NCBI GenBank assembly: GCA_021737185.1
Contig: JAIPEL010000005.1
Span: 1 to 64,000, forward strand
Length of the DNA stretch: 64,000 bases
Reading direction: 5' to 3'
Source of the DNA: Desulfobacterales bacterium
GTDB taxonomy: Bacteria > Desulfobacterota > Desulfobacteria > Desulfobacterales > CAFBRK01
Made by a program: the position numbers and the translations under genes. The notes beneath the pieces were generated by a model that was given only the letters and a program-made list of their open reading frames with translations, had not been told where the DNA came from and ran no database searches. This document shows positions 36,592 through 55,333 of the stretch, piece after piece. Each line of letters opens with the position of its first letter. The stretch's first letter is position 1.

Positions 36592-36749
36592 TGGATTCAA
36601 AAAAAGAACCTAAAAAAGCCGAGAAACAACTGTATCATTCTCCGAACCTTACAACCTACGGCGACATTTCGGAATTGACGAAAACTGCCTCCGGATCCGG
36701 CAGGCAGGATGGAACCGGCAATTATGGAACGGCCAGGTACTCCACTTGA
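36591..36749 (+). CDS. Lasso-peptide precursor
   Basis: A 52-residue peptide preceded by GGGAGG. Its leader carries YHSPNLTTYGDISELT (residues 15-30), an exact YxxPxLxxxGxxxxxT recognition motif with Thr30 at the -2 position. The core should therefore be residues 32-52, starting TASGSGRQD and ending YGTARYST. D40 is the only acidic core residue and so must be the ring acceptor: a nine-membered ring if Thr32 is residue 1, or seven to eight if cleavage is at Ser34 or Ala33. Ser51 and Thr52 at the end are candidate kinase targets. It lies after, not before, the processing genes. Confidence 0.88.
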   Translation: MDSKKEPKKAEKQLYHSPNLTTYGDISELTKTASGSGRQDGTGNYGTARYST

Positions 36750-37750: not shown

Positions 37751-37773
37751 CATATGCTTTCGGGAGACGGCCC

Positions 37774-38895: not shown

Positions 38896-40052
38896 GGGTC
38901 GATGTTGCCATCATCGGTGCCGGGCCTGCCGGCGGGATGGCCGCCGTCACGCTGGCGCGTTCCGGTTTGAAGGTCGTGCTGCTGGAAAAAGCGTCTTTGC
39001 CGCGGGAAAAACCCTGTGGCGGCGGCATTCCTAAAAATGCATTGAAAGAGTTAGACTGGGATTTTCAGTGTGTTGTTGAACAAAAGGTGACAAGGATCCG
39101 CTATTTGAACAACTTCCGTATGGAAAAAACGTATCCGATCTCAAAGCCGCTTTTGATGGTGAACAGAAAAAAATTCGACTATGAACTGATCTGTCACGCA
39201 GGAGCCATAGGAAAACAAGATTTCTCTGTCAGGGAAGGCTTCCCGGTCGAGAGCATCGAGGAAAGGGAGAATTCGGTTCGGATAAAGGGCTTAAACGGAG
39301 AAACGATTGCCGCCGACGTCGTGATCGCGACTGACGGCGCAAACAGTAGGGCAGGAAGGCAGATCGGGCTTGTTCAAGAGAGGGCCAAAATTCTGGCCCT
39401 GGACGCGGCTGTAGAAGTTTCCCCGAAAATTTTTGAAGAAATCAAAACGACTGCCACGTTCAACATCTCCTGTCTGCCGCAGGGCTACGGCTGGATTTTC
39501 CCAAAAGACGGGTATCTGAGCTGCGGGGTGGGGGGGAGCTTAGCAAACAAGGGGTTGTCCGCTATTTTTGATCATTTCATTCGAAAAAGCTTCCCCGATG
39601 GGGGCTTCAAAGTCATCGGAAAGAAAATACATCCGGTTCCCATTTTCACCGGCAGAAGCCGTCTTGCGACCCGGCGGCTCTGCCTGGCCGGGGATGCCGC
39701 CAGACTGGTAGACCCGGTCATGGGTGAGGGAATTCGATACGCCCTTCAAAGCGGGTCGATTGCGGCAAAATGTATAATGGATCTTTTTTGTGGGAGTGAA
39801 AAGAACGATTCAGCAGAGCCGGCGGGCGCAAGGGAGACAAACGGCCTCTTGGCCTACAGCAAAACCATCCATCGCAGGATCGGCAGAGAACTTGACCTTT
39901 TATACCGATTCGCACTGCCCTTGTTCTGGGAGCAGCCGGAATTTTTCTACCGAAAATTCTTTTATGAGGGTTTTAACTATCTGGAAACCTGCAGAGGACT
40001 TGCCCAAAAAATGGGACTTTCGGCGAGGGAAGTGCCGCATACATTGCGGTGA
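38892..40052 (+). CDS. FAD-dependent oxidoreductase (geranylgeranyl-reductase-like) in the lasso operon
   Basis: A flavoprotein of the geranylgeranyl reductase/halogenase superfamily. FAD binding is shown by IIGAGPAGGMAA (7-18), the PREKPCGGGIP motif (32-42) and GDAARLVDPVMGEGI in the second FAD segment. No halogenase WxWxIP motif is evident. It starts with GTG overlapping the previous stop. In this position it may hydroxylate, desaturate or otherwise tailor the lasso peptide, or act on a lipid. A terminator follows about 45 bases after the stop. Confidence 0.85.
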   Translation: MRVDVAIIGAGPAGGMAAVTLARSGLKVVLLEKASLPREKPCGGGIPKNALKELDWDFQCVVEQKVTRIRYLNNFRMEKTYPISKPLLMVNRKKFDYELICHAGAIGKQDFSVREGFPVESIEERENSVRIKGLNGETIAADVVIATDGANSRAGRQIGLVQERAKILALDAAVEVSPKIFEEIKTTATFNISCLPQGYGWIFPKDGYLSCGVGGSLANKGLSAIFDHFIRKSFPDGGFKVIGKKIHPVPIFTGRSRLATRRLCLAGDAARLVDPVMGEGIRYALQSGSIAAKCIMDLFCGSEKNDSAEPAGARETNGLLAYSKTIHRRIGRELDLLYRFALPLFWEQPEFFYRKFFYEGFNYLETCRGLAQKMGLSAREVPHTLR

Positions 40053-40091
40053 ATTTACATGGAAGGGACGAGTCCAAACGCTGCGGTGACC

Positions 40092-40343
40092 TTATTCTAA
40101 AGCCTCATCTTGGGAAGAAAGAGGCTTTTTTTCTGTTTTCGAGGCAAAATGGCACCAGCGCATCCCCCAATCGAAGGCAAACGCCTGGCGAAGCTCCTCT
40201 GCTGTAAAATCATGCCCGGCTTGGGTGCCAACGGCAACGATTTTCTGCAAATCTCCAGGGTCTTTCAACTTCTCCAGCTTGCTCCGCAGCAATGGATCGC
40301 GGTAAACTTGTTGAATAAACGCCAGCGCAGGGTTCAGGGACAT
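40092..40343 (-). CDS. Nif11-type small protein
   Basis: An 83-residue protein with the Nif11 leader-domain pattern: MSLNPALAFIQQVYRDPLLRSKLEKLKDPGDLQKIVAVGTQAGHDFTAEELRQAF. Nif11 domains serve as leaders for several RiPP classes. Beyond the domain come FDWGMRWCHF and a hydrophilic tail; no Gly-Gly cleavage site is evident, so it may be a stand-alone Nif11 protein rather than a precursor. The start is set by AAAGGAGG. It is read against the lasso operon, and its 3' end overlaps the operon's terminator. One Cys is present in the tail. Confidence 0.75.
   Translation of the reverse strand: MSLNPALAFIQQVYRDPLLRSKLEKLKDPGDLQKIVAVGTQAGHDFTAEELRQAFAFDWGMRWCHFASKTEKKPLSSQDEALE
40099..40132 (+). terminator. 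Rho-independent terminator of the lasso operon
   Basis: AAAGCCTC and GAGGCTTT form the stem with a 14-base loop, and seven T follow. It lies 46 bases after the FAD oxidoreductase stop and also encodes the end of the Nif11 gene on the other strand. Confidence 0.75.
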
Positions 40344-40375
40344 CGACCGCTGCCTCCTTTCCGGCATAATGTCCA

Positions 40376-41578
40376 ATGAGAAAATTGCAGGCCTCGATGC
40401 TGCCGCTATATTATAGAGCGATCGCCATTTCCGCAAGAGTGGCACCGAATCCACAAGAGAGGGAAAGATTCGCTGCGGTCTTGCGGAACATTTCCGACAT
40501 CTCTGCTTTGATCCGGCTGGCCGTCGAGGAGGAAACGGCCGGTTTGCTGTATACCTTCCTGTCAAAGGCCGACCTGCTGACAATGCTCGACGCAGACCAG
40601 AAAAATGTTCTGCACGGATGGTACGTTCAAACAGCGAGGGAAAATCTTCTCCATCTGTCTGCATTGAAACGACTTTTGGTGGAATTTCACAAGAATCGGA
40701 TTCCTGTTGCCATGATCAAGGGAATGCCGCTGCTAACGGAGGTATACCAGGACATCGGTGTGAGGAAAATGGAGGACATCGATTTATGGATTCCTGAAAA
40801 CCATCTCCTATCCGCACGCAGCTGCCTGAACGAAATCGGCTATCGCCAGGATCCGGTCTATACCCTCAAATTTCAAAAACCGGGCGTCACGATCGATCTG
40901 CATACCCATTTTTTGGGTGCGGATCGGATCCGCACCCGAAGGTACCTGTTTGACGAAAGCCCCGAAGATACGTTTCGAAACGCCCGCATCGTTTATTTAA
41001 ACCATGCGCCGGTCCGCTGCCTTCGATCCTGCGACCAGGTTCTTTTTCTGTGGCTGCATGCGGCAAAACACAACCTCGGAAAATTGATTTGGCTGGTGGA
41101 CATCTTCACCATCGTCCGAAAATGGAATGACGAGCAATGGGTGGATCTGGCTGCCCGGGCAGAAAACCTGAAACAAACGGCGTCACTGGTGCGCTTGCTT
41201 TTTTTTCTCGAACAGCTTTTTGAGGTTCGCCATCAGGTTGATGAAAAAGCCCTTCCCACGGTAGCTTGTCCCTCCGCATCTGTCCGCTATCTGTTTCGCA
41301 GAAGAATAAAAAACGGCGCCCTTCCATTCTGGGCGCCGTTGATGCTTTTTTCTCCGGACCGCGGGTTTTCAAATCAACTGCGCTACGCCATCGAAACGCT
41401 CTTTCCCCGGCCCGAAATCCTCCGGGAGACATTCACCGGGTATCGATATCGGTTGAATTGGCCGCTGTACGGTCTGAGGTGTATACAGCTCGCTTGTATC
41501 GCCTGGAAAAAAGCAGGCGATATCTTAATGGGAGAAAAATCCACTCGAGGGGAAAATCAAGTCCCACAGGGACATTGA
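40376..41578 (+). CDS. Uncharacterised nucleotidyltransferase (NTP_transf_5-like)
   Basis: A nucleotidyltransferase-fold protein of the type often seen in RiPP and surface-glycan loci. KGMPLLTEVYQDIGVRKMEDIDLWIP carries the DxD-like EDIDLW; HTHF and LWLHAAKHNLGKLIWLVDIF follow in the usual order. Substrate is unknown. It is separated from the lasso operon by a terminator and by the opposing Nif11 gene, so co-regulation is uncertain. No good ribosome binding site precedes the ATG at 40376; a start at 40397 is possible. A terminator-like hairpin lies within the coding sequence at 41312-41350. Confidence 0.75.
   Translation: MRKLQASMLPLYYRAIAISARVAPNPQERERFAAVLRNISDISALIRLAVEEETAGLLYTFLSKADLLTMLDADQKNVLHGWYVQTARENLLHLSALKRLLVEFHKNRIPVAMIKGMPLLTEVYQDIGVRKMEDIDLWIPENHLLSARSCLNEIGYRQDPVYTLKFQKPGVTIDLHTHFLGADRIRTRRYLFDESPEDTFRNARIVYLNHAPVRCLRSCDQVLFLWLHAAKHNLGKLIWLVDIFTIVRKWNDEQWVDLAARAENLKQTASLVRLLFFLEQLFEVRHQVDEKALPTVACPSASVRYLFRRRIKNGALPFWAPLMLFSPDRGFSNQLRYAIETLFPRPEILRETFTGYRYRLNWPLYGLRCIQLACIAWKKAGDILMGEKSTRGENQVPQGH
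40410..40436 (-). promoter_or_regulatory. Possible promoter of the Nif11 gene
   Basis: On the minus strand a perfect TATAAT (40410-40415) has TTGCGG (40431-40436) 15 bases upstream. It lies within the first codons of the nucleotidyltransferase as drawn. Confidence 0.4.
41312..41350 (+). terminator. Terminator-like hairpin inside a coding sequence
   Basis: AACGGCGCCC and GGGCGCCGTT pair perfectly over 10 bases with a 9-base loop; GATGC and six T follow, and AATAAA precedes it. It lies within the nucleotidyltransferase gene, encoding KNGALPFWAPLMLF. Confidence 0.5.
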
Positions 41579-41601: not shown

Positions 41602-43038
41602 TCATAAGACATCACGCAGTGGACGGCCCTTGGCCTGCCCCCAGCGGAGAAGGCGGCTGGGATCGGACTCGCTGACTTGAGGGGCGCTTTCCCTGGAAGA
41701 TTCGATGACGGGTAAAAGGGTGATGATTCCCACCAGGAGCCAGAAAGGCTCCATAATCCGCACGATAATAAAGGTGTTGGCTCCGACAGCGTGAAACAGC
41801 ATCGCCACGTAACCGGCCGCAAAACCCTTCAAGAGTCCTTTGTGCAACGGATCCGACACTTGGCGCCAGGTGGCGCGAATCAAGCCGAACAGGGCGTACA
41901 GCAGATAACCGAAAGCCGCCAGCCCCAGAATTCCGGTTTCTACGATTACCCGAATGAACTGCGCGTCGATAAAAGTGTAGCCGGTCACCCCGAAGCCGAA
42001 GATCGGGTGCCGGGTCCAATCGGAAAGCCCGTTCTTCCAGCTCATCAACCGGGCGGACAACGAAGTATCCAGCCGGATATCACCGACCTGGAGCTGCTGC
42101 TCATGGTACCGTTGAGAAAAAGTGTAGGCAATTCGCTCTTTGACTGTCGAAGGTAAAAAAAGGGGACTGGCAATCAAGCCGATGACCAAAAGGGGGAGAA
42201 TGAATCGCCGCTTTTCGGACATATAGGCCAAAATAAAAATCGCCGGCAGCGCCGCCAGGTAAGAGGATCGAGACTGGGTCGCCATCAAAGGTGGGACGAT
42301 GGCGGCGATGAGCACAAGCAGCTTCCACCGCAATTTTCGATCCCGCGTTGTCGACAGAATCCCTCCCGCCACCGCACCAATGAGAACGAGGTAGCCGCCT
42401 AAGGTGTTCGGCTCTCCTGCCTCGCCCTCGAAGGGCGCACTCACCCGTCCGCCGCCCGGGATCTGGGCCATGCCGATGACGGAAACGATGAAACAAGTCA
42501 AGAACAAACACCAGAGGATGCGCCTGAGATGCTGTTCATTTTGCACATGATTGGCCACCATGAAAAAAACGATGAAATATTCGAAATATTTCAAGACAAA
42601 CAAAAAGCCGGTCTTTGGATCGACCCGCCCGGCCAACACACCGATCCCGGTGGAAAGGAGACAGGCCACCATGTAGTAGAAAATCGGACGGTTTAGGGGG
42701 GTTTTCAGAAACAGCCCCAGCTCCTTGTACACGGCATTCTTGGCAAACCATGAAAAACCGATGATCACCAGCAAAAAATCGTCGAACCGCAGCGTTACAC
42801 CTCTTCCGGAAGTCGCCCTCTCGGCCAATTGCCCGATTCCAATCTCCGGCGAAAGGAGCATGGAAAAGATCAGAATGTAGATTCCGACCTCGGTGTTGAG
42901 AAAGGTCAAAGCAAAAACAACGACCACCATCAGCGAGCCGAGAAGCAAAAAAGGTGGGTACTCGGCAGCCGTAAACCCGACCATCACCACCACGGTCAGA
43001 AAGAAGATGATGAACACGATAAGGCGGAAAAGAGGCAT
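41602..43038 (-). CDS. O-antigen ligase/polymerase family membrane protein
   Basis: A 478-residue integral membrane protein with about a dozen hydrophobic segments and the Wzy_C-type loop. MATQSRSSYLAALPAIFILA is the conserved post-loop segment, and DTSLSARLMSWKNGLSDWTRHPIFGFGVTGY is the large periplasmic loop typical of O-antigen ligases (WaaL) and polymerases (Wzy). It would join or polymerise repeat units on the periplasmic side. Sequence alone does not separate the two roles. It is the last gene of the polysaccharide locus on the minus strand. Confidence 0.87.
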   Translation of the reverse strand: MPLFRLIVFIIFFLTVVVMVGFTAAEYPPFLLLGSLMVVVVFALTFLNTEVGIYILIFSMLLSPEIGIGQLAERATSGRGVTLRFDDFLLVIIGFSWFAKNAVYKELGLFLKTPLNRPIFYYMVACLLSTGIGVLAGRVDPKTGFLFVLKYFEYFIVFFMVANHVQNEQHLRRILWCLFLTCFIVSVIGMAQIPGGGRVSAPFEGEAGEPNTLGGYLVLIGAVAGGILSTTRDRKLRWKLLVLIAAIVPPLMATQSRSSYLAALPAIFILAYMSEKRRFILPLLVIGLIASPLFLPSTVKERIAYTFSQRYHEQQLQVGDIRLDTSLSARLMSWKNGLSDWTRHPIFGFGVTGYTFIDAQFIRVIVETGILGLAAFGYLLYALFGLIRATWRQVSDPLHKGLLKGFAAGYVAMLFHAVGANTFIIVRIMEPFWLLVGIITLLPVIESSRESAPQVSESDPSRLLRWGQAKGRPLRDVL

Positions 43039-43366: not shown

Positions 43367-43371
43367 TCATG
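43340..43371. repeat. Perfect 14-base inverted repeat spanning the autokinase stop codon
   Basis: CATGATCAAATCGC-gtca-GCGATTTGATCATG overlaps the last codons of the gene at 43367-45601. There is no T tract on either side, so it may be an mRNA-stabilising hairpin. Confidence 0.75.
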
Positions 43372-45601
43372 GGCCGAAGATATCCTGCCAGAAAATGCCC
43401 ATGAAGATCAGGGCGGCGGCGGCCAAAATCAGGATGGTTTTCACCGTGGTCCCGAGGCCGCCGGCATCCGGTTCCTCGATCTCGCCGGGCGGGCCGTAGT
43501 AATAATGGGCATGGTACTTGAAATAGTCGGGTCCCACCTCCGGCTTGACGTTGTTTAGGATCACACCGACCACCTTGGCCTTGACATTGTCGAGGCTCAT
43601 CTTGGCCCGGTACAAGATGCCGCGGGCGATGGCGCCCACCTTGTAAACGAGAATCACCCCGTCGCAGAGGGTGCCGATCTCAGAAGCGTCTGCCACCGGC
43701 AGCACCGGCGGCGCATCGATAAAGATATAATCGTAGACTTCGTACACCTCGGCCAGAAACGCCCTGAAACGAGGGGAACGCAGGATTTCCGAGGGATTCG
43801 GCGGGCTTGTTCCTGCGGTGACGATATGCAGGTTGTCCAGGCCGGGCGTCTTGAGAATTTCTTCGATCTGAAACTCGCCGAGCATCAAATCGGTGATGGT
43901 ATTGACGATCTCCTGCCAATCGTAATTTCCCAGCACGTAGTCGGTCATACCCGGAGATCTGTCGAGCCCGAACATCTTGTGCACTAGTGGCTTTCGAAGG
44001 TCTCCTTCCACGAGAAGAACCTTGTCGCCGGCCTGGGCCATGCTCAGCGCCAGGTTTACGACGTTGGAGGTCTTTCCCTCCTGGACAAAGGAGCTGGTGA
44101 TCAGAAAGGACTTTCCCTTTTTGTCCAGAACGACGAACTGCATATTCGTCCGCAGGGAGCGAAACGCTTCGGCAGCCAGGGATTTGGGGTCGAAATGTGC
44201 CACCAGGTCGGTACGCCGACCACGGCGTGAGGTCCCTTTTGCCCCCTCGTCGCTCTCCCAGAAAGGGATGACCCCCAGCACCGGCACCTGCAGTAAGGTT
44301 TCAATGTCTTCGATGGTGCCGATGGAGGTGTCCAGCGTCTCGGCCACAAACGTGAAAACGATGCCGATGACCAGCCCCATGACCACGCCGGTGAGGATGA
44401 TCATGATCTTGGACGGAATGTTGATCGGTTCTGTCGAGGTCACCGCCGGCCGGATGAGGCTCACCTCCTCCACCCGGCCCGACGCCTTGATCAGCGTCTC
44501 CTGGTATTTGGCCTTGAGCTGGGAGTAGAGCTCGGCCTGGATCTCCTTTTCTCTTTCCAGCCGGGCAAGCTGAAGCGCCTTGTCCGGAATCTGCAGATTC
44601 TCCCACCGAAGCTTTCGAAGATCGACCAGCAGGTTCTCCTGCCGCCGGCTGAGCTTCTCAAGGAGGGCCTTGACTGCTTTTCGAATTTCGGAAACGACGG
44701 AATGGATCTGTTCTTCGACCTCGAGCACCTGGGGATGCTTTTCCGTGTAATCATAGAGCAGGGCATCCCTTTTCAGCACCAGGTCCCGGAGCTGCACTCC
44801 TAACGATGCCACAGGAGAGTCTTCCAATGCAGGATAGACGGCTTCGGAAGACTCCTTGTCGTATCCTCCTTGATCCAGGCTCTGAAGAAGGGAAGAGAAC
44901 TCTGCCTTTTTCCTCTCCAGCTCCTCGTATTCGGCTTCCAGGGTGGTGAGGCGGCCAAGCAAGTTGGCTGTCTGTGTATCCAGGGCAATCATTTCGTGGG
45001 TTTCTTTGAACAGCCGCAGTTTCTCCTCGGCCTGCTTCAACTCCCTGGACGTGATTCCGAGCTGCTTTTCGATAAACGCCTTTGTTTCGAAGATCTGGCG
45101 GTTTTTTTCCTCGATGTTGTACTGCCGAAACGCTTCGGCAAAGGCATTGGCCACCTTCTCGGCCTCTTGGGGATCCGAAGAGACCACCTTGATGTTGACG
45201 ATATTGGTCCCCTCTTGCTGCTCGGATTCAGCCATGGCTTTGAGGCGCTGAACCGCCGCCATGGCGGCTTCGGAGATTCGCAGCTCATCGAGGGTGGAAC
45301 TTTTCGAGATCCAGCCGAGTTCCTTGGCGGTTTTGACCAGAACCGGGAAGCTGGTGATCAGAAATGCCTGGGTAACCATGTTTTCGCCCTGGACCCAGTA
45401 AGCACCAGACAGGAAATCGGCAAGGTTCGTCACCTGTTCGATCTTCACCGAGGCAGACGCCTCAAAAAGCGGTTTGGGCTCTTTGAGCTTGGCAAAGCCG
45501 TAAGAAGAGATGGCGGCCAGCAGCACCATCAGGATCACGATGCTTTTCCGCTTCCTGAAAATCCGCCAGTAGTCTCTTAAATCGACGTCGTATTGTGCCA
45601 T
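43367..45601 (-). CDS. Wzc-type polysaccharide co-polymerase and tyrosine autokinase
   Basis: Controls chain length and export of a surface polysaccharide. Two membrane segments (21-37 and 399-420) bracket a long periplasmic coiled-coil region. The kinase has Walker A SSFVQEGKTS (K510), A' VLLVEGDLRKP (528-538) and Walker B YIFIDAPP (D629). In A' the usual first Asp is Glu532. A Tyr cluster (Y693, Y696, Y700-702) is present. Unusually, a third hydrophobic segment (about 722-738, TILILAAAALIFMGIF) follows it near the C-terminus. It lies downstream of the Wza-type gene. Confidence 0.9.
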   Translation of the reverse strand: MAQYDVDLRDYWRIFRKRKSIVILMVLLAAISSYGFAKLKEPKPLFEASASVKIEQVTNLADFLSGAYWVQGENMVTQAFLITSFPVLVKTAKELGWISKSSTLDELRISEAAMAAVQRLKAMAESEQQEGTNIVNIKVVSSDPQEAEKVANAFAEAFRQYNIEEKNRQIFETKAFIEKQLGITSRELKQAEEKLRLFKETHEMIALDTQTANLLGRLTTLEAEYEELERKKAEFSSLLQSLDQGGYDKESSEAVYPALEDSPVASLGVQLRDLVLKRDALLYDYTEKHPQVLEVEEQIHSVVSEIRKAVKALLEKLSRRQENLLVDLRKLRWENLQIPDKALQLARLEREKEIQAELYSQLKAKYQETLIKASGRVEEVSLIRPAVTSTEPINIPSKIMIILTGVVMGLVIGIVFTFVAETLDTSIGTIEDIETLLQVPVLGVIPFWESDEGAKGTSRRGRRTDLVAHFDPKSLAAEAFRSLRTNMQFVVLDKKGKSFLITSSFVQEGKTSNVVNLALSMAQAGDKVLLVEGDLRKPLVHKMFGLDRSPGMTDYVLGNYDWQEIVNTITDLMLGEFQIEEILKTPGLDNLHIVTAGTSPPNPSEILRSPRFRAFLAEVYEVYDYIFIDAPPVLPVADASEIGTLCDGVILVYKVGAIARGILYRAKMSLDNVKAKVVGVILNNVKPEVGPDYFKYHAHYYYGPPGEIEEPDAGGLGTTVKTILILAAAALIFMGIFWQDIFGP

Positions 45602-45720: not shown

Positions 45721-45744
45721 ATAAAATCGCCGCAGCGATTTTAT
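45721..45744. repeat. Hairpin directly after the Wza-type gene
   Basis: ATAAAATCGC-cgca-GCGATTTTAT, overlapping the TGA of the gene at 45744-47936 by one base. The stem loops at 43340-43371 (same ATCGC...GCGAT centre) and 47973-48027 have a similar position at gene ends. Confidence 0.75.
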
Positions 45745-47936
45745 CAATCTTCGTCAAAGGGCGATCCGAGTGTATCTGCCGCGGAACCAAATTCGTTGAC
45801 CACCTGGGCCGGGTAGATAATCAGCCGCATGATCGGTTGGACCCGCTTGAAAAACTGATTCAAGCTTCCCCATCCGCTTCTGGGGACGTAAACCAGATCT
45901 CCGTTGGTCAGGGCCACGTTCTGGGTGTAGTCTCCCTCTTCGATCAGGGCCTTTAAGTCGGTATCGATCACTTCGGGTCGGTTGATATCGCCGCGAACCA
46001 CTTTTGTCAGGGCAGGCTTTCCGAAAACGGTGTATCCGCCGGCCTGGGCGATGGCGTCGAACACCCGCATTTCGGATCCCTCGAAGGTGTACGCCCCCGG
46101 CTTTTCCACTTCGCCGAACACATATACCCGGTTCGACTCGGCCGACACCGCTGGAACGTAAACCACATCACCGCTGTCCAAGATCATGTCCTGGGAGATG
46201 TCCCCTTGGGTGATCGCCCGATAAAGGTTGACGGTGATCGACTGGTTGTCCTTCCGGCGAATCCGTACATCGCGAAGGTTGGCCTCCGGCCGGGGGCCGC
46301 CGGCTTGAGAAAGCATCTGCGATACCCGCGCCTTGCCCTTCAGCGTATATTGGCCGGGCCCGGTTCCGGCCCTTTGGCCCACCGCCCCCAGGATAGTGAC
46401 AAACTTGCTGTTATGCTCTCCGACGATGATGTCGATCCGCGGATGCCGTATATACTCTTCGAGCTTTCGCGTGAGGATCCTGTCAAGTTCGGTGGGAGTT
46501 AGGCCCCGGACATACAAGTCTTCAACGTAGCCGAAGGAAATCTTGCCGTCCGGTCTTACCGGGATCTCCACCTTTTCACTTTCCGTCCCTTTCCAGAAGG
46601 TAATTTCAATAAGGTCCCCTGAGTCCAGCCGATATTCCGGAAACCCGGATCGAGTGGTGAACACATCGTTCTCCTCGACCGCCTCTTTGGCATCTACCCC
46701 CTGGTCCTGCTGCCTCAGTTCGATGGCGCCGGCTTTGGCAGGGAAAACGGATGCTTTGCCCATCCAGAACTTTACCCCTTCGCCGAAGCTGGCCGCAAGC
46801 AGATCGTCGATACCGTCTCCGTTCAGGTCTGCAACCGCCAGGTCGTAAAACGTTCCGCGACCCGGATAGGAACTGGAAAACCGAACGTATCCTTCTTCTG
46901 CCGGCACCATTTTGAAGCCCTGAATCCCCCGACCGTCGAGCGATCCGGCAAAAAGTTCCGGCGTGCCGTCCCCATCCTGATCCAGGGCCGACGGCTTCCA
47001 GAAGCTTCCCTCCCCACCTGCCGAGACCCTGGCAAAGGATCCGTCTCCTTTCCCTTTAAAAACGGCCACACCCGCGCGAAACGAACCGGCAAGAAGATCC
47101 ACGTGGCCGTCACCGTCGATGTCCTCGGAGGTAAGCCCGTACCAGCTTCCCTCGGCCAGGGTTTGGCCAAAGGACCAGCCGCCGGCGCCGTCTCCGAACC
47201 AAATCTTCAAAACACTGTTTTTGCCCCACCCGGCAGCGGCGATATCCATATGGCCGTCTTCGTTGAAATCGGCCACTGCCACGTCGTTGTATTCGCCGGC
47301 GATTTCCGGGCCCGTCTCCACCGGCCATCCGCCCGCGCCATTTCCAAGCCAGACCTGCACGCCTCCTTGAAGCTGTGATGTCCGGTTTGCGGCAACGATG
47401 TCCATGTTTCCGTCCGCGTTGATATCGGCAAGCCGCAGTCCCTGGTAAGTTCCGATTTCAGTGGGGCCGACGCCCGGCTTCCATCCCTGCCCCTCCTTAT
47501 TGACGAGAACCGCGACACCGGAAGCTTCTTTCTGGACCGAGTAGATGATGTCCTTCCATCCGTCTCCATTGACATCGGCCGCAGCCACGGACTGAACCTC
47601 GCCTTTGACCGGTAGGTTGAATACCTCATCCAGGCCGGCGGGCCCCCGGCCTTTCCATATCGAAATCATTCCGGGCTGGGACGCACCGCCGATCACATCC
47701 GAATACCCGTCGTTGTCGAGATCGGCCACTGCCAAACCTCGGTACAGCCCGGAAGTCGGCAGCCCCCGACTTTCCGGCAAGGCAAATTGAGCAGCTTCCG
47801 TCTCGATTTTTTCTCCCGGCACCTTCTGGGTCGGCGCACAGGCAAATATCCCCGCCGTGCCCGAAAGTATCAGCAAGACAACTATGCTCTGAAAAAAGAA
47901 CCTATGGCTACACATCCGAGTTTCCGTTCTCATCAT
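45744..47936 (-). CDS. Wza-type polysaccharide export lipoprotein with an N-terminal seven-repeat FG-GAP propeller
   Basis: A 730-residue fusion. The signal ends at a lipobox with Cys33 (GIFAC). Residues 60-400 hold seven FG-GAP/VCBS repeats, each with a calcium-type DxDxDG loop: DLDNDG 72, DVNGDG 121, DINADG 171, DFNEDG 223, DIDGDG 272, DQDGDG 319 and DLNGDG 370. The ~50-residue spacing fits a seven-bladed propeller. Residues 434-700 are the Wza export protein: EYRLDSGDLIEITFWKG, then SLBB-type repeats (VTILGAVGQRAGTGPGQY; VYVFGEVEKPGAYTF). It would form the outer-membrane channel. A propeller on such a protein is unusual. Confidence 0.9.
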   Translation of the reverse strand: MMRTETRMCSHRFFFQSIVVLLILSGTAGIFACAPTQKVPGEKIETEAAQFALPESRGLPTSGLYRGLAVADLDNDGYSDVIGGASQPGMISIWKGRGPAGLDEVFNLPVKGEVQSVAAADVNGDGWKDIIYSVQKEASGVAVLVNKEGQGWKPGVGPTEIGTYQGLRLADINADGNMDIVAANRTSQLQGGVQVWLGNGAGGWPVETGPEIAGEYNDVAVADFNEDGHMDIAAAGWGKNSVLKIWFGDGAGGWSFGQTLAEGSWYGLTSEDIDGDGHVDLLAGSFRAGVAVFKGKGDGSFARVSAGGEGSFWKPSALDQDGDGTPELFAGSLDGRGIQGFKMVPAEEGYVRFSSSYPGRGTFYDLAVADLNGDGIDDLLAASFGEGVKFWMGKASVFPAKAGAIELRQQDQGVDAKEAVEENDVFTTRSGFPEYRLDSGDLIEITFWKGTESEKVEIPVRPDGKISFGYVEDLYVRGLTPTELDRILTRKLEEYIRHPRIDIIVGEHNSKFVTILGAVGQRAGTGPGQYTLKGKARVSQMLSQAGGPRPEANLRDVRIRRKDNQSITVNLYRAITQGDISQDMILDSGDVVYVPAVSAESNRVYVFGEVEKPGAYTFEGSEMRVFDAIAQAGGYTVFGKPALTKVVRGDINRPEVIDTDLKALIEEGDYTQNVALTNGDLVYVPRSGWGSLNQFFKRVQPIMRLIIYPAQVVNEFGSAADTLGSPFDED

Positions 47937-47972: not shown

Positions 47973-48027
47973 GCCATGGCAGATCTGGGGTGGTTCCTGA
48001 CAGGAATCACCCCAGATCTGCCATGGC
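47973..48027. repeat. 55-base near-perfect palindrome at the end of the ExeA-like gene
   Basis: 20-base arms (GCCATGGCAGATCTGG...) pair perfectly, and the 15-base centre is itself palindromic (TTCCTG-a-CAGGAA). The right arm is the last codons of the ATPase gene (AMADLG and stop). It has no T tract. Confidence 0.9.
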
Positions 48028-48810
48028 TTCGTTGACGATTCTCGAATCGATCGCCCCGGCCTTTCTCATCATGCCGATCAGCATGCACCGGTCGCACAAG
48101 TTGTTGATCCGCAGCGGAATCCCTTGGGAATACGAATACAAGGGGAAAATTGCTTTGCGGGTGAAAATCCCGCGCTCGGCGCCGGCGCTTTTAAGCCGGT
48201 ACAAAATGTAGCGGACTGTGTCTTTCAGATCCAGCGGTTTCAGATGGTACTTGACCGATATCCGCTCTTTCAGGGGAAGCAGCGCTTCGATCTTCAACAA
48301 CAGCGGCGTCTGCCCCATGATGATCAAGGTAACCAGAAATTGATGTTCGGACTGCATATTGAGAAGCATCCGCAGCTCCTCCAGGCTTTCCCGTTGCTGG
48401 ATCAGGTGGGCCTCGTCGACGATCAGAATCGTTCTTATTCCGTGCTGCTGTCTTTTCTGGAGCTTGTCGTGGAGCTTGGTCAGCAGAAAAAATTTCGAAT
48501 CGCTGTCCGTGGGAATCCCGATCTCATACAGTATCGATCGGAGAAGGTCCAAGGGAGTGAGGGCAGGGTTCGTGATGGTGCTCACCCGATAGCGGTCTTC
48601 GGGAAGCGAATCGCTCAGGACGCGGCTGATGGTGGTCTTGCCGGCCCCGACCTCCCCGGTGAGCATGGCCGCGCCCTTTCGGTTTTCGATAGCGTACATC
48701 AAACGGCTCAAGGCCTCCTCGTGCTGGGAGGAACGAAAAAACACCTTCTGATCCGGGACATTTTCAAATGGCGGCTCTTTCAGACTCCAGTATTTCTGGT
48801 AGATGGTCAA
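48007..48810 (-). CDS. ExeA/GspA-like AAA ATPase
   Basis: An AAA ATPase of the ExeA/GspA type, common in exopolysaccharide and exosortase loci. Walker A is TGEVGAGKTTIS and Walker B is TILIVDEAH; the sensor region follows in VTLIIMGQTPLLLK. Length 267 is typical of the cytoplasmic AAA part alone; no peptidoglycan-binding domain is attached. No exosortase was found in the window. Its end coincides with the 55-base palindrome. It is probably involved in assembly of the export machinery, but its partner is unknown. Confidence 0.87.
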   Translation of the reverse strand: MTIYQKYWSLKEPPFENVPDQKVFFRSSQHEEALSRLMYAIENRKGAAMLTGEVGAGKTTISRVLSDSLPEDRYRVSTITNPALTPLDLLRSILYEIGIPTDSDSKFFLLTKLHDKLQKRQQHGIRTILIVDEAHLIQQRESLEELRMLLNMQSEHQFLVTLIIMGQTPLLLKIEALLPLKERISVKYHLKPLDLKDTVRYILYRLKSAGAERGIFTRKAIFPLYSYSQGIPLRINNLCDRCMLIGMMRKAGAIDSRIVNEAMADLG

Positions 48811-49199: not shown

Positions 49200-50744
49200 T
49201 TATCGCTCCACCACCCGGCTTTTCACCCCCTTGGCGAGCAGCTCGGCTATCTGCTCTTCGGCACCCTGCCGGGTGTAAAATGCCCCCACCCATAGGTGGA
49301 TACCGCCGTTTTCCTGTTCGATCAGGTAAGGAGAGTATCCCAGCGACTGCAGCCGGTCCAGCTCCGCTGCGGCTTTTCCGCTGTTCAGATAAGTGCCTAC
49401 AAGTGCGGCAAACGGGGTGCGCTTGACCACCGCTTCCGGTTGAATGATCCTGCGGACGCTTTCCGTCGCCCGATTCGAGGCAGATGACAGGCCGACGGAC
49501 TGCCGCCCCTTCCAGTAGGGAATCCCGCCCAAAAGGACGAGCAACAGCAACAAAAGCAGCAGCGGTCTTGCCCCGGCCCCTTTTCCCCGCAGTCCTTTTT
49601 TCTTGGCAGGCTTCGGTGCCTTTTCAGCTGGCAGCGAGGACGCCGGTTCTATTCCGGCGGAAGAAACATCGCGGTCCTGAAATTGCCTTGGCGACGACTC
49701 CTGTAGATCACGGCCTTCTGCCAGCTTCTCCAGTTCGTCTTCTTCGACGCTGTCTACGATATATAACAGTGAATTTTCCGGCAGGTTGACGATCCGCTCG
49801 GTCAGGACCTTTCGGCCCTGGGAGTCGTATTCGATCTGGAGCCTGGGCCGCATCGGCTGGTCCGGGTAGGTTTCGATCACCCGTCCGACAGCGTTGGAGT
49901 TGAGCTGGACATAGGTTGACAGCGGGAATATGGAAAACGCGTTGAGCAGCGCCTTCAGATGCTTTTTATGAAATTTGGGTTTGCAGGTCTTGATGATTTC
50001 CTTGATCGCGTAGAAGGGATTGAAGCGGTCTCGCTGAGGTCTGGAGTGACTCAGGGCTTCATAGATGTCCATGAGACCGACAATCTGCGCATACTCGTGG
50101 ATTTCATCTCCCTTCAGCCCCCGAGGATAGCCGGAGCCGTCGATTCTTTCATGGACCTGGAGCGCCACCTCGGCCAGGTACGGATAGCTGCCGCTGTATG
50201 GCTTTAAAATCTCATAGCCGGCCTCGGAATGCTTTTGAACGAGTCGAAGCTCTTGCTGGGTCAGCTGCTCTTTTTTGTACAGGATCTTTTCGGGCAGACG
50301 GCACATCCCTACTTCGTGCAGGAGGGCCGCCATTCCGATTTCCACCTGTCTTTCTTTCGAATATCCCAGCTGTTCGGCGGCCCGAATCGAATAGATGGCC
50401 ACGTTGATGCACTTGTTCACCAAAAAATTTTGCCGTTCGTCGAGCTGAATCGCCCGGATAAACAACTCATCTTGAGCAGAGGCGGATTCGACCACCTGGC
50501 GCGCGATCCGGAAGCCGGGTTCCAGGTCGAATTGCCTGCCTTCCTTTACCGCGCTGAAAACCCCGCTCAGGTAAACCACGCCGTCTTTGTAAATATCGGT
50601 GCTCGCCGAAAACGGTTCGGCAGGAGGCGGTGCATCGGCCGGTGTCGGGGAAGCAGAACGGAAGTCGGACCCGTTCGGCGTCATACCCGCTCTCTTCCTG
50701 TTGTTGTCCGGGGGAAGATTATTTAACTCACTAAATCGAACCAT
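49200..50744 (-). CDS. HD-GYP-like protein with a transmembrane segment and SPOR domain
   Basis: Residues 100-260 resemble an HD-GYP c-di-GMP phosphodiesterase: LLHEVGMCRLPEKILYK then HERIDGSGYPRG (198-209). The canonical HD pair reads H143-E144 and the following IGK reads VGM, so metal binding may be altered. A linker leads to a membrane segment (393-408) and a C-terminal SPOR domain (about 440-514), which binds denuded septal peptidoglycan. Function is probably envelope-linked signalling near the polysaccharide export machinery. The combination is not one I recall. Confidence 0.83.
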   Translation of the reverse strand: MVRFSELNNLPPDNNRKRAGMTPNGSDFRSASPTPADAPPPAEPFSASTDIYKDGVVYLSGVFSAVKEGRQFDLEPGFRIARQVVESASAQDELFIRAIQLDERQNFLVNKCINVAIYSIRAAEQLGYSKERQVEIGMAALLHEVGMCRLPEKILYKKEQLTQQELRLVQKHSEAGYEILKPYSGSYPYLAEVALQVHERIDGSGYPRGLKGDEIHEYAQIVGLMDIYEALSHSRPQRDRFNPFYAIKEIIKTCKPKFHKKHLKALLNAFSIFPLSTYVQLNSNAVGRVIETYPDQPMRPRLQIEYDSQGRKVLTERIVNLPENSLLYIVDSVEEDELEKLAEGRDLQESSPRQFQDRDVSSAGIEPASSLPAEKAPKPAKKKGLRGKGAGARPLLLLLLLLVLLGGIPYWKGRQSVGLSSASNRATESVRRIIQPEAVVKRTPFAALVGTYLNSGKAAAELDRLQSLGYSPYLIEQENGGIHLWVGAFYTRQGAEEQIAELLAKGVKSRVVER

Positions 50745-50863: not shown

Positions 50864-52057
50864 TCATGATCGTGTTTCGCGCTTGGTGTCCGGTGCTCGG
50901 GTGGAGGAAGGAGGTTCATCCCCGGCGCAGGAAATGGCGTTGTGGCGCCCCCTTCGTTCCAACACTGTGATCAACATCACGAATATGACCGCCTGACCCA
51001 GCAACAGCAGGGCATCGATCGGCCTCCTGGCATCTCGAAGCACCACCGCGCTGGTACCCAGGCAGGCGTTGATCATGAAAATAAAGAGGACGCTCCTTCG
51101 GGGTCCGCCGAGAACCACTGCCATTCTGTGGTGCAGATGGTCCTTTCCCACGTAATCGATCCACTGTTTGAAGCTTTTGACCTTTCCGGTGGAGATCCGA
51201 TCCACCGTGATGTGGATCATATCGAAAATAAGGACCCAAAAAATGAGAATCGGCGATATGAGCGACCCGACGGGGTTGTTTTCCGCCCAGTCCCCATAGA
51301 CGGCGAGGCAGGCCAGTACAAATCCGATAAAAATGCTGCCGGCATCCCCTAAAAATATGGTCGCCTTTCCTCTGGCCTGAAAGTTGTACGGCAAAAATCC
51401 CAGACAGCTTCCCATGATGCCGACAGCGACCCACCCGATAAATGGCTGATCGGTCTGAAAGGCTACGATCCCTAAAAAAAAGGCAATGATCGCACCCAGC
51501 CCGGAGGCAAGACCGTTCATACCGTCAAAAAAATTCATGGCATTGGTGATTCCCACGATCCAAAGCACGGTCAAAAAAACGTTGGCGGCTTCGGCAAAAA
51601 CGCCGTAGGTGCTCGGCGCGACCCTCAGCACAATCCCCTGGCTCATCACGATGGAAACGCAGGCAAGCTGGGCAACCAGTTTGAGCCATGCAGGAACCTC
51701 GTGGATGTCGTCGATGAGACTGACTGTAAACAAAACCAGCGATGCGATGATAATGCTTGCAAGTTTTCCGGAATAAACGCCGTTTGCGATAATGGCGACG
51801 GCAAATCCGAAGAAAACAGCACCTCCTCCCAAGAGGGGGGTGGCCTCTGGATGCACTTTGCGGCCGCTCGGAAGATCGTATACGTTGCACCGCCTCGCTG
51901 CCCAACGAAAAACCGGGGTAAGCGTAAAGCTCAGGGCAAACGAAAATGTGAGAATATACATCCACCGCCAACCGATGGAGGCAAAATGCGAACGAACCGG
52001 TGGAATGGTCAAAAGAAGGGTGGCAAGGGGCACGACAATGTAAAGGCGCCGTTCCAT
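50864..52057 (-). CDS. WecA/MraY-like polyprenyl-phosphate sugar-phosphate transferase
   Basis: Starts glycan synthesis on the cytoplasmic side by moving a sugar-1-phosphate to undecaprenyl phosphate. A multi-pass protein with the Asp-rich loops SLIDDIHEVP and the NFFDGMNGLASG and FLGDAGSIFIGF segments typical of WecA/TagO. The DHLHHR motif near 310 is a WecA-type HIHH variant. I start at MERRLYIVVPL, since a longer frame would overlap the aminotransferase gene. It lies downstream of that gene on the same strand. Confidence 0.92.
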   Translation of the reverse strand: MERRLYIVVPLATLLLTIPPVRSHFASIGWRWMYILTFSFALSFTLTPVFRWAARRCNVYDLPSGRKVHPEATPLLGGGAVFFGFAVAIIANGVYSGKLASIIIASLVLFTVSLIDDIHEVPAWLKLVAQLACVSIVMSQGIVLRVAPSTYGVFAEAANVFLTVLWIVGITNAMNFFDGMNGLASGLGAIIAFFLGIVAFQTDQPFIGWVAVGIMGSCLGFLPYNFQARGKATIFLGDAGSIFIGFVLACLAVYGDWAENNPVGSLISPILIFWVLIFDMIHITVDRISTGKVKSFKQWIDYVGKDHLHHRMAVVLGGPRRSVLFIFMINACLGTSAVVLRDARRPIDALLLLGQAVIFVMLITVLERRGRHNAISCAGDEPPSSTRAPDTKRETRS

Positions 52058-52077
52058 CCGATTGTCGAAAAATCCCC

Positions 52078-53160
52078 TCAACTTGCCGTCTCCTTGAAAA
52101 AAGAGGCCGTTTGCACGGCATGAACGATTTTTCCGATCTCCTCTTCGGAAAGGGCCGGATACAGGGGGACAGAAACCAGTCTTTTCCATGCGGATTCTGC
52201 ATGGGGGTAGCCGTCGATGTTCAGGTATCGATGAATCGGTCGGCTCACCGGGCGTTCACATAAGACCCCCCTTGCTCTCATTTCCTCTGAGAACGCTTTT
52301 CGCTTTACCCCGCTTATGTCCACAACGAACCGGTAGTAGATATGGCCGGGATTTTTCGGTGGCAATTTCACCGATAGTCCTTTGAAGCGACGGAAGAATT
52401 CCGATGCGATGGCCCTTCTTTTCCGGATCAGGGCCGGAAGCCGGTCAAGCTGGACCATTCCCATCGCGGCCTGCATATCCGTCATTTTGTAATTGTGGCA
52501 AACCTTGTAATCTTTCTGCTTGTCGTACTCCCGGAGTTCTCTTACCGCTGCGGCAATCTTCCGGCTCCCCGTTACGACCATGCCGCCTTCTCCGGTCGTG
52601 ATCACCTTGGTGGCATAAAACGAAAAAATGGAGGCAATGCCGAAAGTCCCGGTCAGCCGCCCCTCATCGGTCGAGCCGATCGACTGGGCACAGTCTTCGA
52701 TAATCGGAAGCCCCAGGTCGAGAAAAGGCGCCATTTTCACCGGAAGGCCGAACATATGCGGCACAACGACCGCCTTGGTCCTTTCGGTAATCCGTTTTTT
52801 TACGTCTTCGGGATCGATGTTGCCGGTTTCCCTGCAGACATCTGCCAGAACCGGTTCGGCCCGAACATACAAAACGGCATTCAGCAGGGCCGTGCAGACG
52901 TATGTTGGGATGATCACTTCATCCCCCGGACCGATATCCATGGCCAGCAGGGTTAGATGAAGAGCCGCGGTTCCGGAGCTGGCACCGACGGCATGGGAAA
53001 CGCCCAGATACTCGGCAAAACGCCCCTCGAACCGATTCACCTCTTTTCCCTGGGCAATGTGCCCGGAGCGGATCACCCGGGCCACGGCTTCGGCTTCCTT
53101 TTCCCCGAGAAACGGCCGGGAATGCTGGATCGGCGTCTTGTTGTCCCGGTCAGCGCCCAT
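52078..53160 (-). CDS. DegT/DnrJ/EryC1-family sugar aminotransferase
   Basis: A PLP aminotransferase that would aminate a nucleotide-linked keto-sugar for the surface glycan. It begins MGADRDNKTPIQHSRPFLG. GASSGTAALHL, PTYVCTALLNAV, EDCAQSIG and the PLP lysine K185 (SFYATKVITTGEGG) are all present. The upstream part of the frame overlaps a MITE-like element and is not used. Sugar specificity cannot be set from the motifs. The next gene (initiating transferase) starts after its stop. Confidence 0.9.
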   Translation of the reverse strand: MGADRDNKTPIQHSRPFLGEKEAEAVARVIRSGHIAQGKEVNRFEGRFAEYLGVSHAVGASSGTAALHLTLLAMDIGPGDEVIIPTYVCTALLNAVLYVRAEPVLADVCRETGNIDPEDVKKRITERTKAVVVPHMFGLPVKMAPFLDLGLPIIEDCAQSIGSTDEGRLTGTFGIASIFSFYATKVITTGEGGMVVTGSRKIAAAVRELREYDKQKDYKVCHNYKMTDMQAAMGMVQLDRLPALIRKRRAIASEFFRRFKGLSVKLPPKNPGHIYYRFVVDISGVKRKAFSEEMRARGVLCERPVSRPIHRYLNIDGYPHAESAWKRLVSVPLYPALSEEEIGKIVHAVQTASFFKETAS

Positions 53161-53182
53161 GTTCCTCCTTCCGTCTCCAACC

Positions 53183-53329
53183 TTGATGGTTTCGTAAAAA
53201 GTCTCCGAAGCGTCATGCCGGACTTGATCCGGCATCCAGATGTGCTTGAAATCACTGGATTCCGGATCTCGCTCCGCTCGTCCGGAATGACGAATAGGGG
53301 CCGATTCGGACTTTTTACGATTTCATCAA
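53183..53329. repeat. MITE-like element with TTGATG...CGTAAAAAGTC ends, copy 3
   Basis: Ends TTGATGGTTTCGTAAAAAGT and TTTTTACGATTTCATCAA match as inverted repeats at 18 of 21 positions. The core has two hairpins, CATGCCGGACTTGATCCGGC and GGATTCCGGATC...GTCCGGAATGAC. Copy 3 contains no gene. Confidence 0.85.
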
Positions 53330-53440: not shown

Positions 53441-54064
53441 TCAAATATTGATGAACAGCCGGAGCGACGCAAACGCCTCGGCATACTTGACTCGGCCCTG
53501 GATACCCCTGAAATTGGCGGTGGACCGCGCAAGCTCGACGATGTTCATGTCTTCGATATTGGTTTTTCCGATCTGGGAGAAATGCGCCTCCAGGGCATCC
53601 ACTTTTCGGCCCAGCGTCTCGGAGATATCGACGTATACCTGGGCCGTGAAATTCTGCGTGGTGGGCCCTTCGAAAAACAGCACGTTTCGGATGTAGCGGG
53701 TCGCCGAGATCGTCGCCTGCGCCAAATGCCGGTGGTCCTGATGGGTGTCGTCCGGAAAATGGGTGAAGATAAAGTCCGGCCGGACTCGTTCGATCACCGC
53801 CTCGACATCGTTGATGAGCCGCTTGTTGGGAAACAACCTCGTATCTTGGTACTCCCCCCAAAAAATATCCTCGACGCCGATAACCGCCTTGGCGTCGTTC
53901 TGCTCCCTTGCCCGGATCTCCTGATCCCCGCCCTCTCCTCCCTTGGTCAGTATCATCATAAAAGCCCGGTGCTCTTTGGCCGCATATTTGGCAAGGGTGC
54001 CGGCACACCCGAACTCGATGTCGTCCGGATGGGCCCCGATGGCGAGGATATTCATCTTTTTCAT
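53441..54064 (-). CDS. PIG-L-family N-deacetylase
   Basis: A zinc-dependent deacetylase of the LmbE/PIG-L family, acting on N-acetylglucosamine-type sugars. The metal ligands are in AIGAHPDDIEFGCAG and in FPDDTHQDHRHLAQATI. Length about 207 is normal. I use the ATG of MKKMNIL; the frame extends two codons to a TTG. A GAGG lies just upstream. In this locus it would modify a sugar or a lipid-linked intermediate, beside the DegT aminotransferase. Confidence 0.9.
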   Translation of the reverse strand: MKKMNILAIGAHPDDIEFGCAGTLAKYAAKEHRAFMMILTKGGEGGDQEIRAREQNDAKAVIGVEDIFWGEYQDTRLFPNKRLINDVEAVIERVRPDFIFTHFPDDTHQDHRHLAQATISATRYIRNVLFFEGPTTQNFTAQVYVDISETLGRKVDALEAHFSQIGKTNIEDMNIVELARSTANFRGIQGRVKYAEAFASLRLFINI

Positions 54065-54646
54065 TTCCAACCTCTTTCGTCACAAAAGGTTTCTTTAATG
54101 AAACTTCCCTCCCCCGTCATCCCCCGCCAGGGTCAGGCCGGCTTGTCCGGCGAAGCCGAAGGTGAAAACGGAAGCGAAGCGGAGAGCCGTGGTTCGACAA
54201 GCTCACTGCAGGCAGGCTCACCACCCTGAGCAGCGTCGAAGGGGGATCCAGGTAAAGCCTGGATCCCCCGGATCGGGGTCCGGGGCAGGCTTGTCAAAAA
54301 AGCTTGCCCTGGACTCGATCCAGGGCCCAGAATGACGGACCGGTAATAACCAAGTTTCACATAAGCCCCGCCGCTGGGGCGTCCAGATTGATCAAATATG
54401 AAACTTATGTCGCGAAGCCCCTGACGGTGGAGGGACGCGCTCTGTCGCGTCCGTGTTGCCAGCAACGACCCAATACCGGCCACGACGGAGCGTGGCCCTC
54501 CAACCTCCAAAACCCAAGGCGGGGGCATGTCGGTTATTGTCGCCGGCCTCGGTCGAAGTTTCATACGAGCGCCGCCGCTGGCCGGAAGGGCCGACCAGTT
54601 TGATCAAGGGTGAAACTATGCCATTTTGGCCTAGTTTCACATAAGA
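54065..54646. other. 580-base repeat-rich intergenic region
   Basis: It holds imperfect inverted GTTCGACAAGCTCACTGCAG-type material (54180-54300), two CCTGGATCC/GGATCCAGG motifs, and copy D of the large palindrome. No gene is seen. Confidence 0.7.
54346..54618 (+). repeat. Large palindromic element, copy D (core 54428-54502)
   Basis: The most complete copy. Outer blocks AAGTTTCACATAAGCCCCG...ATATGAAACTT and AGTTTCATACGAGCGCCG...GGTGAAACTATG, with TTGATCAA inside both, enclose the core and the AACCTCCAAAACCCAAGGCG tail. Confidence 0.88.
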
Positions 54647-55333
54647 TCAATCATCTTCTCTTCGAATCACCGACAATGCCTCAGGGCCACAATTGAAAAG
54701 CAGATCGACAATGGACAGGTGCGACTCGAACTCCCCGAACAATTGCGGATACGTCGGGTGATGAAAATCCTGAAACACGACGGCGATGCCCGCCGCCTCG
54801 AATCGCGCCAGGTCCATGTAGTTTGCCCCGTCTTTTCCCGAAAGGTAGACGTCGGCACCCACCGACCGGCAGACATCGATGAGGCGGTCTGTCGGTTCTT
54901 CGCGCAGGCTCATCTCGGAGGCTTGAACCGTATCTGTTTCTGTCAGCCCGAGCGCTGCCATGAGGGCTTCGACCAGGCCGATATTCAGGTCCGAGAGCCT
55001 CCGCCAGTGTTGCGACAGAATCTTTTCAAAAAGACCGATGTAATCGTCGAAATACGAGGCCTTGGCATAATTGGTGATCAGCCCCTGTAAATGTTTTTTG
55101 GGCCATTTTTCATTGTTGTTGATCAGGATCTCGTTGATTTTCTGCCCGAACCGGTGGCTGACCGGCACGGTGAGCCACTGGGGTCCTCGGGCCGTCTTGA
55201 TCCGGTTTCGGTTCTGCCACTCGTTTTTCTTGTACTGCACGTTGTCCAGAAAGCAGAAGACATCGGCCTTGTCGATCTTGTCGAAATAGCCGAGCCACGG
55301 AAGATACTGGGGCTGATGGATGGAAACAATCAC
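54647..55333 (-). CDS. WbqC-family protein
   Basis: A WbqC-like protein, found in many surface-polysaccharide loci and proposed to act in sugar modification, though its biochemistry is not settled. MIVSIHQPQYLPWLGYFDKIDKADVF is the family hallmark, followed by DNVQYKKNEWQNRN and YFDDY. Length 228 is normal. It is preceded on the strand by the ATPase gene and by short GGTTCCGGGTTC repeats. Confidence 0.9.
   Translation of the reverse strand: MIVSIHQPQYLPWLGYFDKIDKADVFCFLDNVQYKKNEWQNRNRIKTARGPQWLTVPVSHRFGQKINEILINNNEKWPKKHLQGLITNYAKASYFDDYIGLFEKILSQHWRRLSDLNIGLVEALMAALGLTETDTVQASEMSLREEPTDRLIDVCRSVGADVYLSGKDGANYMDLARFEAAGIAVVFQDFHHPTYPQLFGEFESHLSIVDLLFNCGPEALSVIRREDD

Follow-up and report, generated by a model that had tools for sequence, protein, structure and literature searches.

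Why would a Wza-type polysaccharide export lipoprotein carry a seven-bladed β-propeller ahead of its channel, and what might such a propeller hold? The question is raised by a gene in the window, the stretch of 64,000 nucleotides from a Desulfobacterales bacterium that was analysed here (GenBank assembly GCA_021737185.1, contig JAIPEL010000005.1). OPX translocons are usually treated as the domains D1–D4 plus a few GfcC variants, and the gene adds a further conserved layout, which occurs in Desulfobacterota, among them bacteria that live in symbiosis with the gutless worm Olavius, and in Planctomycetota. The finding concerns architecture; it introduces no new type of system.

The Fused Gene and Its Domains

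The gene and its parts are as follows.

45744–47936, minus strand: fused gene encoding a lipoprotein of 730 amino acids (ORF and Pfam)
47838–47936, minus strand: signal peptide, residues 1–33, with lipobox Cys33 (codon 47838–47840; sequence)
47772–47837, minus strand: disordered linker, about residues 34–55 (pLDDT < 50, low conservation)
46755–47771, minus strand: seven-bladed FG-GAP/VCBS propeller, residues 56–394 (Pfam, motifs, model, and Foldseek)
46677–46754, minus strand: disordered linker, about residues 395–420, the site of OmpA in L046, L124, and L177 (model)
46422–46640, minus strand: Poly_export domain (Wza D1), residues 433–505 (Pfam)
46152–46397, minus strand: first SLBB domain (Wza D2), about residues 514–595 (Pfam; exact limits inferred)
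45885–46130, minus strand: second SLBB domain (Wza D3), residues 603–684 (Pfam)
45768–45875, minus strand: C-terminal helix, residues 688–723, counterpart of the Wza D4 pore helix (model and profile)

A single unbroken ORF spans the gene on the minus strand, and the plus strand of the same interval has stops. Pfam matches are to FG-GAP_3 in seven stretches (1.6e-40), to Poly_export at residues 433–505 (1e-16), and to SLBB_2 in two stretches (4.5e-22). The seven Dx[DN]xDG motifs of the propeller, at residues 72, 121, 171, 223, 272, 319, and 370 with spacings of 47–52, are all near intact, and they indicate predicted calcium-binding blades. The initial annotation had described a Wza export lipoprotein with a seven-bladed FG-GAP propeller, in which seven DxDxDG repeats about 50 residues apart precede a normal SLBB export protein behind one lipobox. 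Pfam, the motifs, and the predicted fold agree with this description, the export part having its Poly_export domain, two SLBB domains, and C-terminal helix. Neither Wza_C (PF18412) nor GfcC (PF06251) had a match in the fused protein at E ≤ 1, and no tandem DNA repeats were found at the gene.

The lipoprotein signal, that is, the signal helix and Cys33, was assessed by eye. A Sec/SPII lipoprotein signal is usual in class 1 OPX proteins, occurring in about 78% of the class. Cys33 is kept in at least 90% of the family members (n = 23), and the residue that follows it in relatives is Ala, Ser, Thr, Tyr, Gln, or Val and never Asp. In E. coli, a residue other than Asp after the lipobox Cys directs a lipoprotein to the outer membrane; by this rule, the fused lipoprotein would be sorted to the outer membrane.

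The AlphaFold2 model of the full-length protein, built with 23 relatives, has the propeller at residues 56–394, disordered segments at about 28–56 and about 395–420, the OPX part, and a C-terminal helix of 36 residues. Since the full-length pTM is 0.50, the arrangement of the domains is not fixed by the model. A short N-terminal strand, residues 56–58, closes the propeller ring in the full-length model, and each Dx[DN]xDG motif is predicted to sit in the A–B loop of its blade. When the propeller is modelled by itself (pLDDT 92, pTM 0.91), the structure prediction that the initial annotation had suggested as a check gives a closed, seven-bladed propeller.

Profile searches show homology of the OPX part to Wza from D1 to D4 (2j58, E 6e-37; 9r60, matched over 81–382), and the alignment reaches the C-terminus of Wza 9r60, including the pore helix. 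The alignment to 7xfd spans residues 430–595. The helix at 688–723 is amphipathic in the fused protein itself (p 0.013) and in several, though not all, of the relatives tested. The propeller matches CRTAC1, integrin alpha, and, with the family profile, 6mlt (E 5.8e-6), which we take to be Bap1 of Vibrio cholerae. With Foldseek, Wza, CRTAC1 (TM 0.78 by query length for the propeller), and integrins come up again, joined by LGI1, KICSTOR, BBSome, and PLL lectins.

Blades that bind calcium through Dx[DN]xDG are more often structural than sensory, and in our judgement the presence of seven equivalent sites points to a role in stabilising the fold; there is also no flexible hinge apart from the disordered linkers. 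A sensor or gate in which blade calcium switches export on or off, for which one can point to the near-intact state of all seven motifs and to PilY1, whose propeller calcium regulates pili according to work cited in PMC3123361, therefore seems to us very improbable.

Distribution and Architecture Types

The search for FG-GAP plus SLBB fusions that had been suggested for this gene found many. Among 40 related genomes, a set that includes the source genome, the full fusion is present in seven others. Scanning named genomes turned up 21 fused loci from the Desulfobacterales/Deltaproteobacteria, the Olavius symbionts among them, and one from the Brocadiaceae. In the order, 45 of 292 genomes match, with 33 plain fusions spanning 19 family codes, one fusion with OmpA (G580), one partial match, and 10 proteins without the propeller; this classification was by query span, with G580 assigned by locus and OmpA Pfam analysis. 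Among 294 planctomycete genomes, three have the plain fusion, one has the fusion with OmpA, and two lack the propeller. Three of the fusion-bearing MAGs are deposited as a chromosome record (CP070652, CP070746, and CP070694).

The source genome is a draft of 201 contigs, in which an assembly or frame artefact might have fused two genes, and it was a frameshift or false join that the initial annotation had named as fatal to its reading. However, the same fused ORF occurs in the 33 genomes of the order and in planctomycetes, and the linker position and the operon are conserved with it. Since dozens of independent genomes have the same fusion, assembly error and frameshift are excluded, and we regard the chance of an artefact as negligible.

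The loci fall into several types. Type A is lipobox-propeller-OPX. Type B is lipobox-propeller-OmpA-OPX. Its OmpA match passes the Pfam cut-off in three loci, L046, L124, and L177, of which one is from a planctomycete genome and two are from Desulfobacterota; L046 is truncated N-terminally, and its lipobox lies outside the available sequence. Type C is lipobox-short linker-OPX, without a propeller. The planctomycete plain fusions L174–L176 form type P, and the divergent L178–L180 form type A2.

In the OPX tree, types A, B, C, and P form one clade (100/98), within which type C is monophyletic (96/89). The propeller forms are split into two groups of the tree, so two changes are needed; judged from sequence, the history is compatible with one gain and one loss of the propeller, or with two gains. 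A clade of A and B is not rejected in a smaller tree (p-AU 0.15). The propellers of types B and P score 266–424 bits against the type A profile, and within the fetched loci every ORF that matches the propeller profile also bears the OPX part. On these two grounds one origin is favoured, and the comparison argues for a putative single origin of the propeller family.

A Rosetta-stone pair, in which a separate FG-GAP gene lies beside an unfused OPX gene, was not found in the fetched loci. In L047–L049, L052, and L053, a protein of about 1000 residues with a cysteine cluster, radical-SAM-like by eye, is encoded directly upstream of the unfused planctomycete OPX, and its gene has no FG-GAP motifs. 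Separately, an FG-GAP protein of about 567 residues is present at G000:C12:4153-5025 and in relatives, and FG-GAP_3-matching ORFs of about 530–600 residues occur in many related genomes.

The Export Operon

The neighbours of the fused gene are the following.

41602–43038, minus strand: Wzy/O-antigen ligase family polymerase (family match, synteny)
43367–45601, minus strand: Wzc-type chain-length regulator and tyrosine autokinase, GNVR + AAA_31 (family matches; adjoins the fused gene in relatives)
48007–48810, minus strand: AAA ATPase, XrtA-associated type (family matches, synteny)
49200–50744, minus strand: HD-GYP protein (family matches, synteny)
50864–52189, minus strand: WecA-like initiating glycosyltransferase, Glycos_transf_4 (family match, synteny)
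52078–53235, minus strand: DegT/PseC-like sugar aminotransferase (family match, synteny)
53441–54070, minus strand: PIG-L family de-N-acetylase (between WbqC and DegT; position conserved)
54647–55333, minus strand: WbqC-like protein (family match, synteny)

With Poly_export and SLBB domains, a C-terminal helix, a lipoprotein signal, and Wzc and Wzy in the locus, the fused protein has the characters of a class 1 OPX. No outer-membrane β-barrel family had a match among the neighbouring genes scanned, as is expected because the OPX has its own pore helix.

Type A loci keep the order WbqC, PIG-L, DegT, WecA-like GT4, HD-GYP, ATPase, fused gene, Wzc, and Wzy. Wzc and Wzy are common to types B and C, many of which also have HD-GYP and the ATPase. 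The most constant neighbour is Wzc, which is directly downstream in nearly all loci with enough flank. WbqC is found in 15 of the 16 fetched type A loci with enough flank and in the type B locus L124, and in none of the propeller-less loci. A strict tie of the propeller to WbqC/DegT does not hold, as L174, L176, and L178 have the propeller without this module; the module has been seen only beside propeller-bearing OPX genes, though not beside all of them.

Three further observations concern the region. In a simple ORF list, the PIG-L gene is masked by longer ORFs on the opposite strand; the deacetylase that it encodes suggests that the exported polymer has free amino sugars. Past its kinase domain, the Wzc-type kinase has another hydrophobic segment, its third, which is transmembrane-like, and in several propeller-less relatives a SPOR domain, which binds peptidoglycan, comes after this segment (the relatives viewed were L127, L129, L182, L183, and L185). 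Beside the operon, at 34732–41578 on the plus strand, lies a divergent gene set for asparagine-synthase/lasso-cyclase-like, HprK-related kinase A-like, unknown, FAD monooxygenase-like, and NTP_transf_5 proteins, which resembles a tailored lasso-peptide or HPr-rel-A cluster.

The Aromatic Face of the Propeller

In six of the seven blades, the innermost strand starts with a Tyr or Phe, seven residues ahead of the calcium motif. Position −7 is aromatic in 82% of the family blades versus 8% of the other FG-GAP blades in relatives (n = 88), and position −6 in 41% versus 5% of the other FG-GAP blades of related genomes. The −7 ring is identical across types A, A2, B, and P, and the −6 shell varies. 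By alignment, this aromatic face is conserved and family-specific; taken alone, it does not separate a sugar ligand from a protein ligand.

In integrins, the cage motif grips a protein side chain. More generally, the cage motif of FG-GAP propellers includes the end of strand A at which the −7 residues stand (PMC8023676). The sugar pocket of PVL and tachylectin is marked by a GW motif in the D–A′ loop (PMC8023676), where the propeller sequence reads G-x-[YF]. At the level of sequence, an exact PVL-type sugar pocket is not recognisable.

Placement and Proposed Role of the Propeller

The initial annotation had left the propeller in the periplasm or at the outer membrane with the channel. The short disordered linkers on either side of the propeller, one reaching the lipid anchor and the other D1, together with the OmpA domain beside the propeller in three relatives, make the periplasm the most likely place. 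OmpA lies on the linker between propeller and OPX in these three, so this stretch of chain should meet peptidoglycan. We hold the anatomy and the periplasmic position to be highly probable.

We propose a Wza-type class 1 OPX translocon of a Wzy-type machine, in which each subunit would have a pendant, calcium-motif propeller hanging between the lipid anchor and the channel base (D1). If the channel is a Wza-like octamer, it would be ringed in the periplasm by a collar of eight propellers, each held by two linkers, one of 22 residues leading to the outer membrane and one of 25 residues leading to D1. Least certain are the next steps: the calcium motifs may stabilise the blades, and the aromatic face may bind carbohydrate, which could be the polymer made by this locus, met at the mouth of the channel, or strands of peptidoglycan that surround the channel. 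Carbohydrate binding would hold machine and cargo together. For the proposal as a whole, a class 1 OPX translocon with a periplasmic propeller collar that binds carbohydrate or a partner in the machine, we consider the chances about even.

Carbohydrate as the ligand is a reading to which we give slightly less than even weight. Binding of exopolysaccharide or sugars is known among relatives of the fold: the Bap1/RbmC propeller of V. cholerae binds VPS directly (PMC10102183), PLL proteins are lectins, and PVL is a propeller lectin (PMC8023676). Wzc itself has a periplasmic domain that recognises glycan (PMC12881504), and the finding of WbqC/DegT only beside propeller-bearing OPX genes also fits. 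However, the nearest Foldseek folds (CRTAC1, LGI1, KICSTOR, BBSome) are mostly protein scaffolds, the GW motif is not obvious, and the polymer travels inside the channel, outside which the propellers should sit. Moreover, the aromatic ring is kept in the three loci that have no neighbouring WbqC/DegT; thus, an invariant partner fits better than a variable exported glycan.

Such a partner could be a protein, as at the equivalent integrin face. The aromatic face would then grip the helical arms of Wzc, or a neighbouring OPX subunit or propeller, and so steady the junction of the outer-membrane channel with the inner-membrane Wzc. The ring does not change between architectures or with the neighbouring sugar genes, integrin alpha propellers are relatives in both sequence and fold, the attachment of the propeller at D1 puts it beside the docking place of Wzc, and Wzc is the gene most constantly at its side. 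Yet the propeller-less clade retains the same Wzc and Wzy, and the Wzc transmembrane segments start near residues 19 and 400 in propeller-bearing and propeller-less loci alike. As the periplasmic part of Wzc is of equal length in both, no dedicated docking site is visible, and we consider protein docking unlikely.

The periplasmic position would also suit a propeller whose sole role is to bind cell-wall glycan and fix the channel in the wall, and the OmpA domains of three relatives and the Wzc SPOR domains of several propeller-less ones show a machine repeatedly tied to the wall. But propeller and OmpA stand together in L046, L124, and L177, which weakens the case for the propeller as a mere substitute for a peptidoglycan-binding domain, and we regard such a sole role as improbable.

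Returning to the collar, it is tempting to propose a built-in lectin, in which eight propellers bind their own polymer or the cell wall and the OmpA-armed version is locked to peptidoglycan; we advance this as a tentative possibility. If true, glycan recognition would be part of the translocon in a large, old Gram-negative export clade. The family offers a ready comparison series with the same Wzc and Wzy partners, namely, propeller, propeller plus OmpA, and no propeller, which opens cargo recognition by the translocon, or its anchoring in the envelope, to test.

Comparison with Known Systems

The initial annotation did not recall this fusion, and it has proved equally unfamiliar to the sources consulted. 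A survey of OPX proteins in the whole NR database sorts them into three classes, with no mention of FG-GAP or OmpA in its main text (PMC9603273). No literature mention of FG-GAP and SLBB together, with or without polysaccharide export, was found. The combination of propeller and OPX appears not to have been described previously; the search covered the text of freely readable papers, and supplementary tables or domain databases may already list the architecture without comment.

The locus recalls XrtA/PEP-CTERM loci in that its OPX, ATPase, and chain-length proteins match TIGR03027, TIGR03015, and TIGR03007, all below cut-off (for the OPX against TIGR03027, 146.6 bits with a cut-off of 180). 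Unlike those loci, it has no exosortase (PF09721) match anywhere in the source genome, which is 91% complete, and an XrtA/PEP-CTERM system is rejected.

Class 2C and 2D OPX proteins share with the fused protein an extra domain ahead of Poly_export, but theirs is GfcC (PMC9603273), whereas here it is a β-propeller without a GfcC match.

With CRTAC1, integrin alpha, PLL, and PVL, the propeller has in common its seven blades and matching fold, and with CRTAC1, integrin, and PVL the Dx[DN]xDG motif between strands A and B. It differs from these VCBS/FG-GAP propellers in its fusion to an export channel and in its own −7 aromatic ring; we know of no description of any of them fused to such a channel.

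The fused protein shares with Wza (class 1 OPX; 2j58, 9r60) the lipoprotein anchor, Poly_export, two SLBB domains, the C-terminal pore helix, and Wzc and Wzy partners in the operon, but a propeller of about 340 residues precedes D1 where Wza has a short N-terminal segment. Bap1/RbmC, to which the profile match with 6mlt points, likewise ties a propeller to exopolysaccharide biology; unlike the fused protein, however, it is a secreted, eight-bladed matrix adhesin that acts outside the export channel (PMC10102183).
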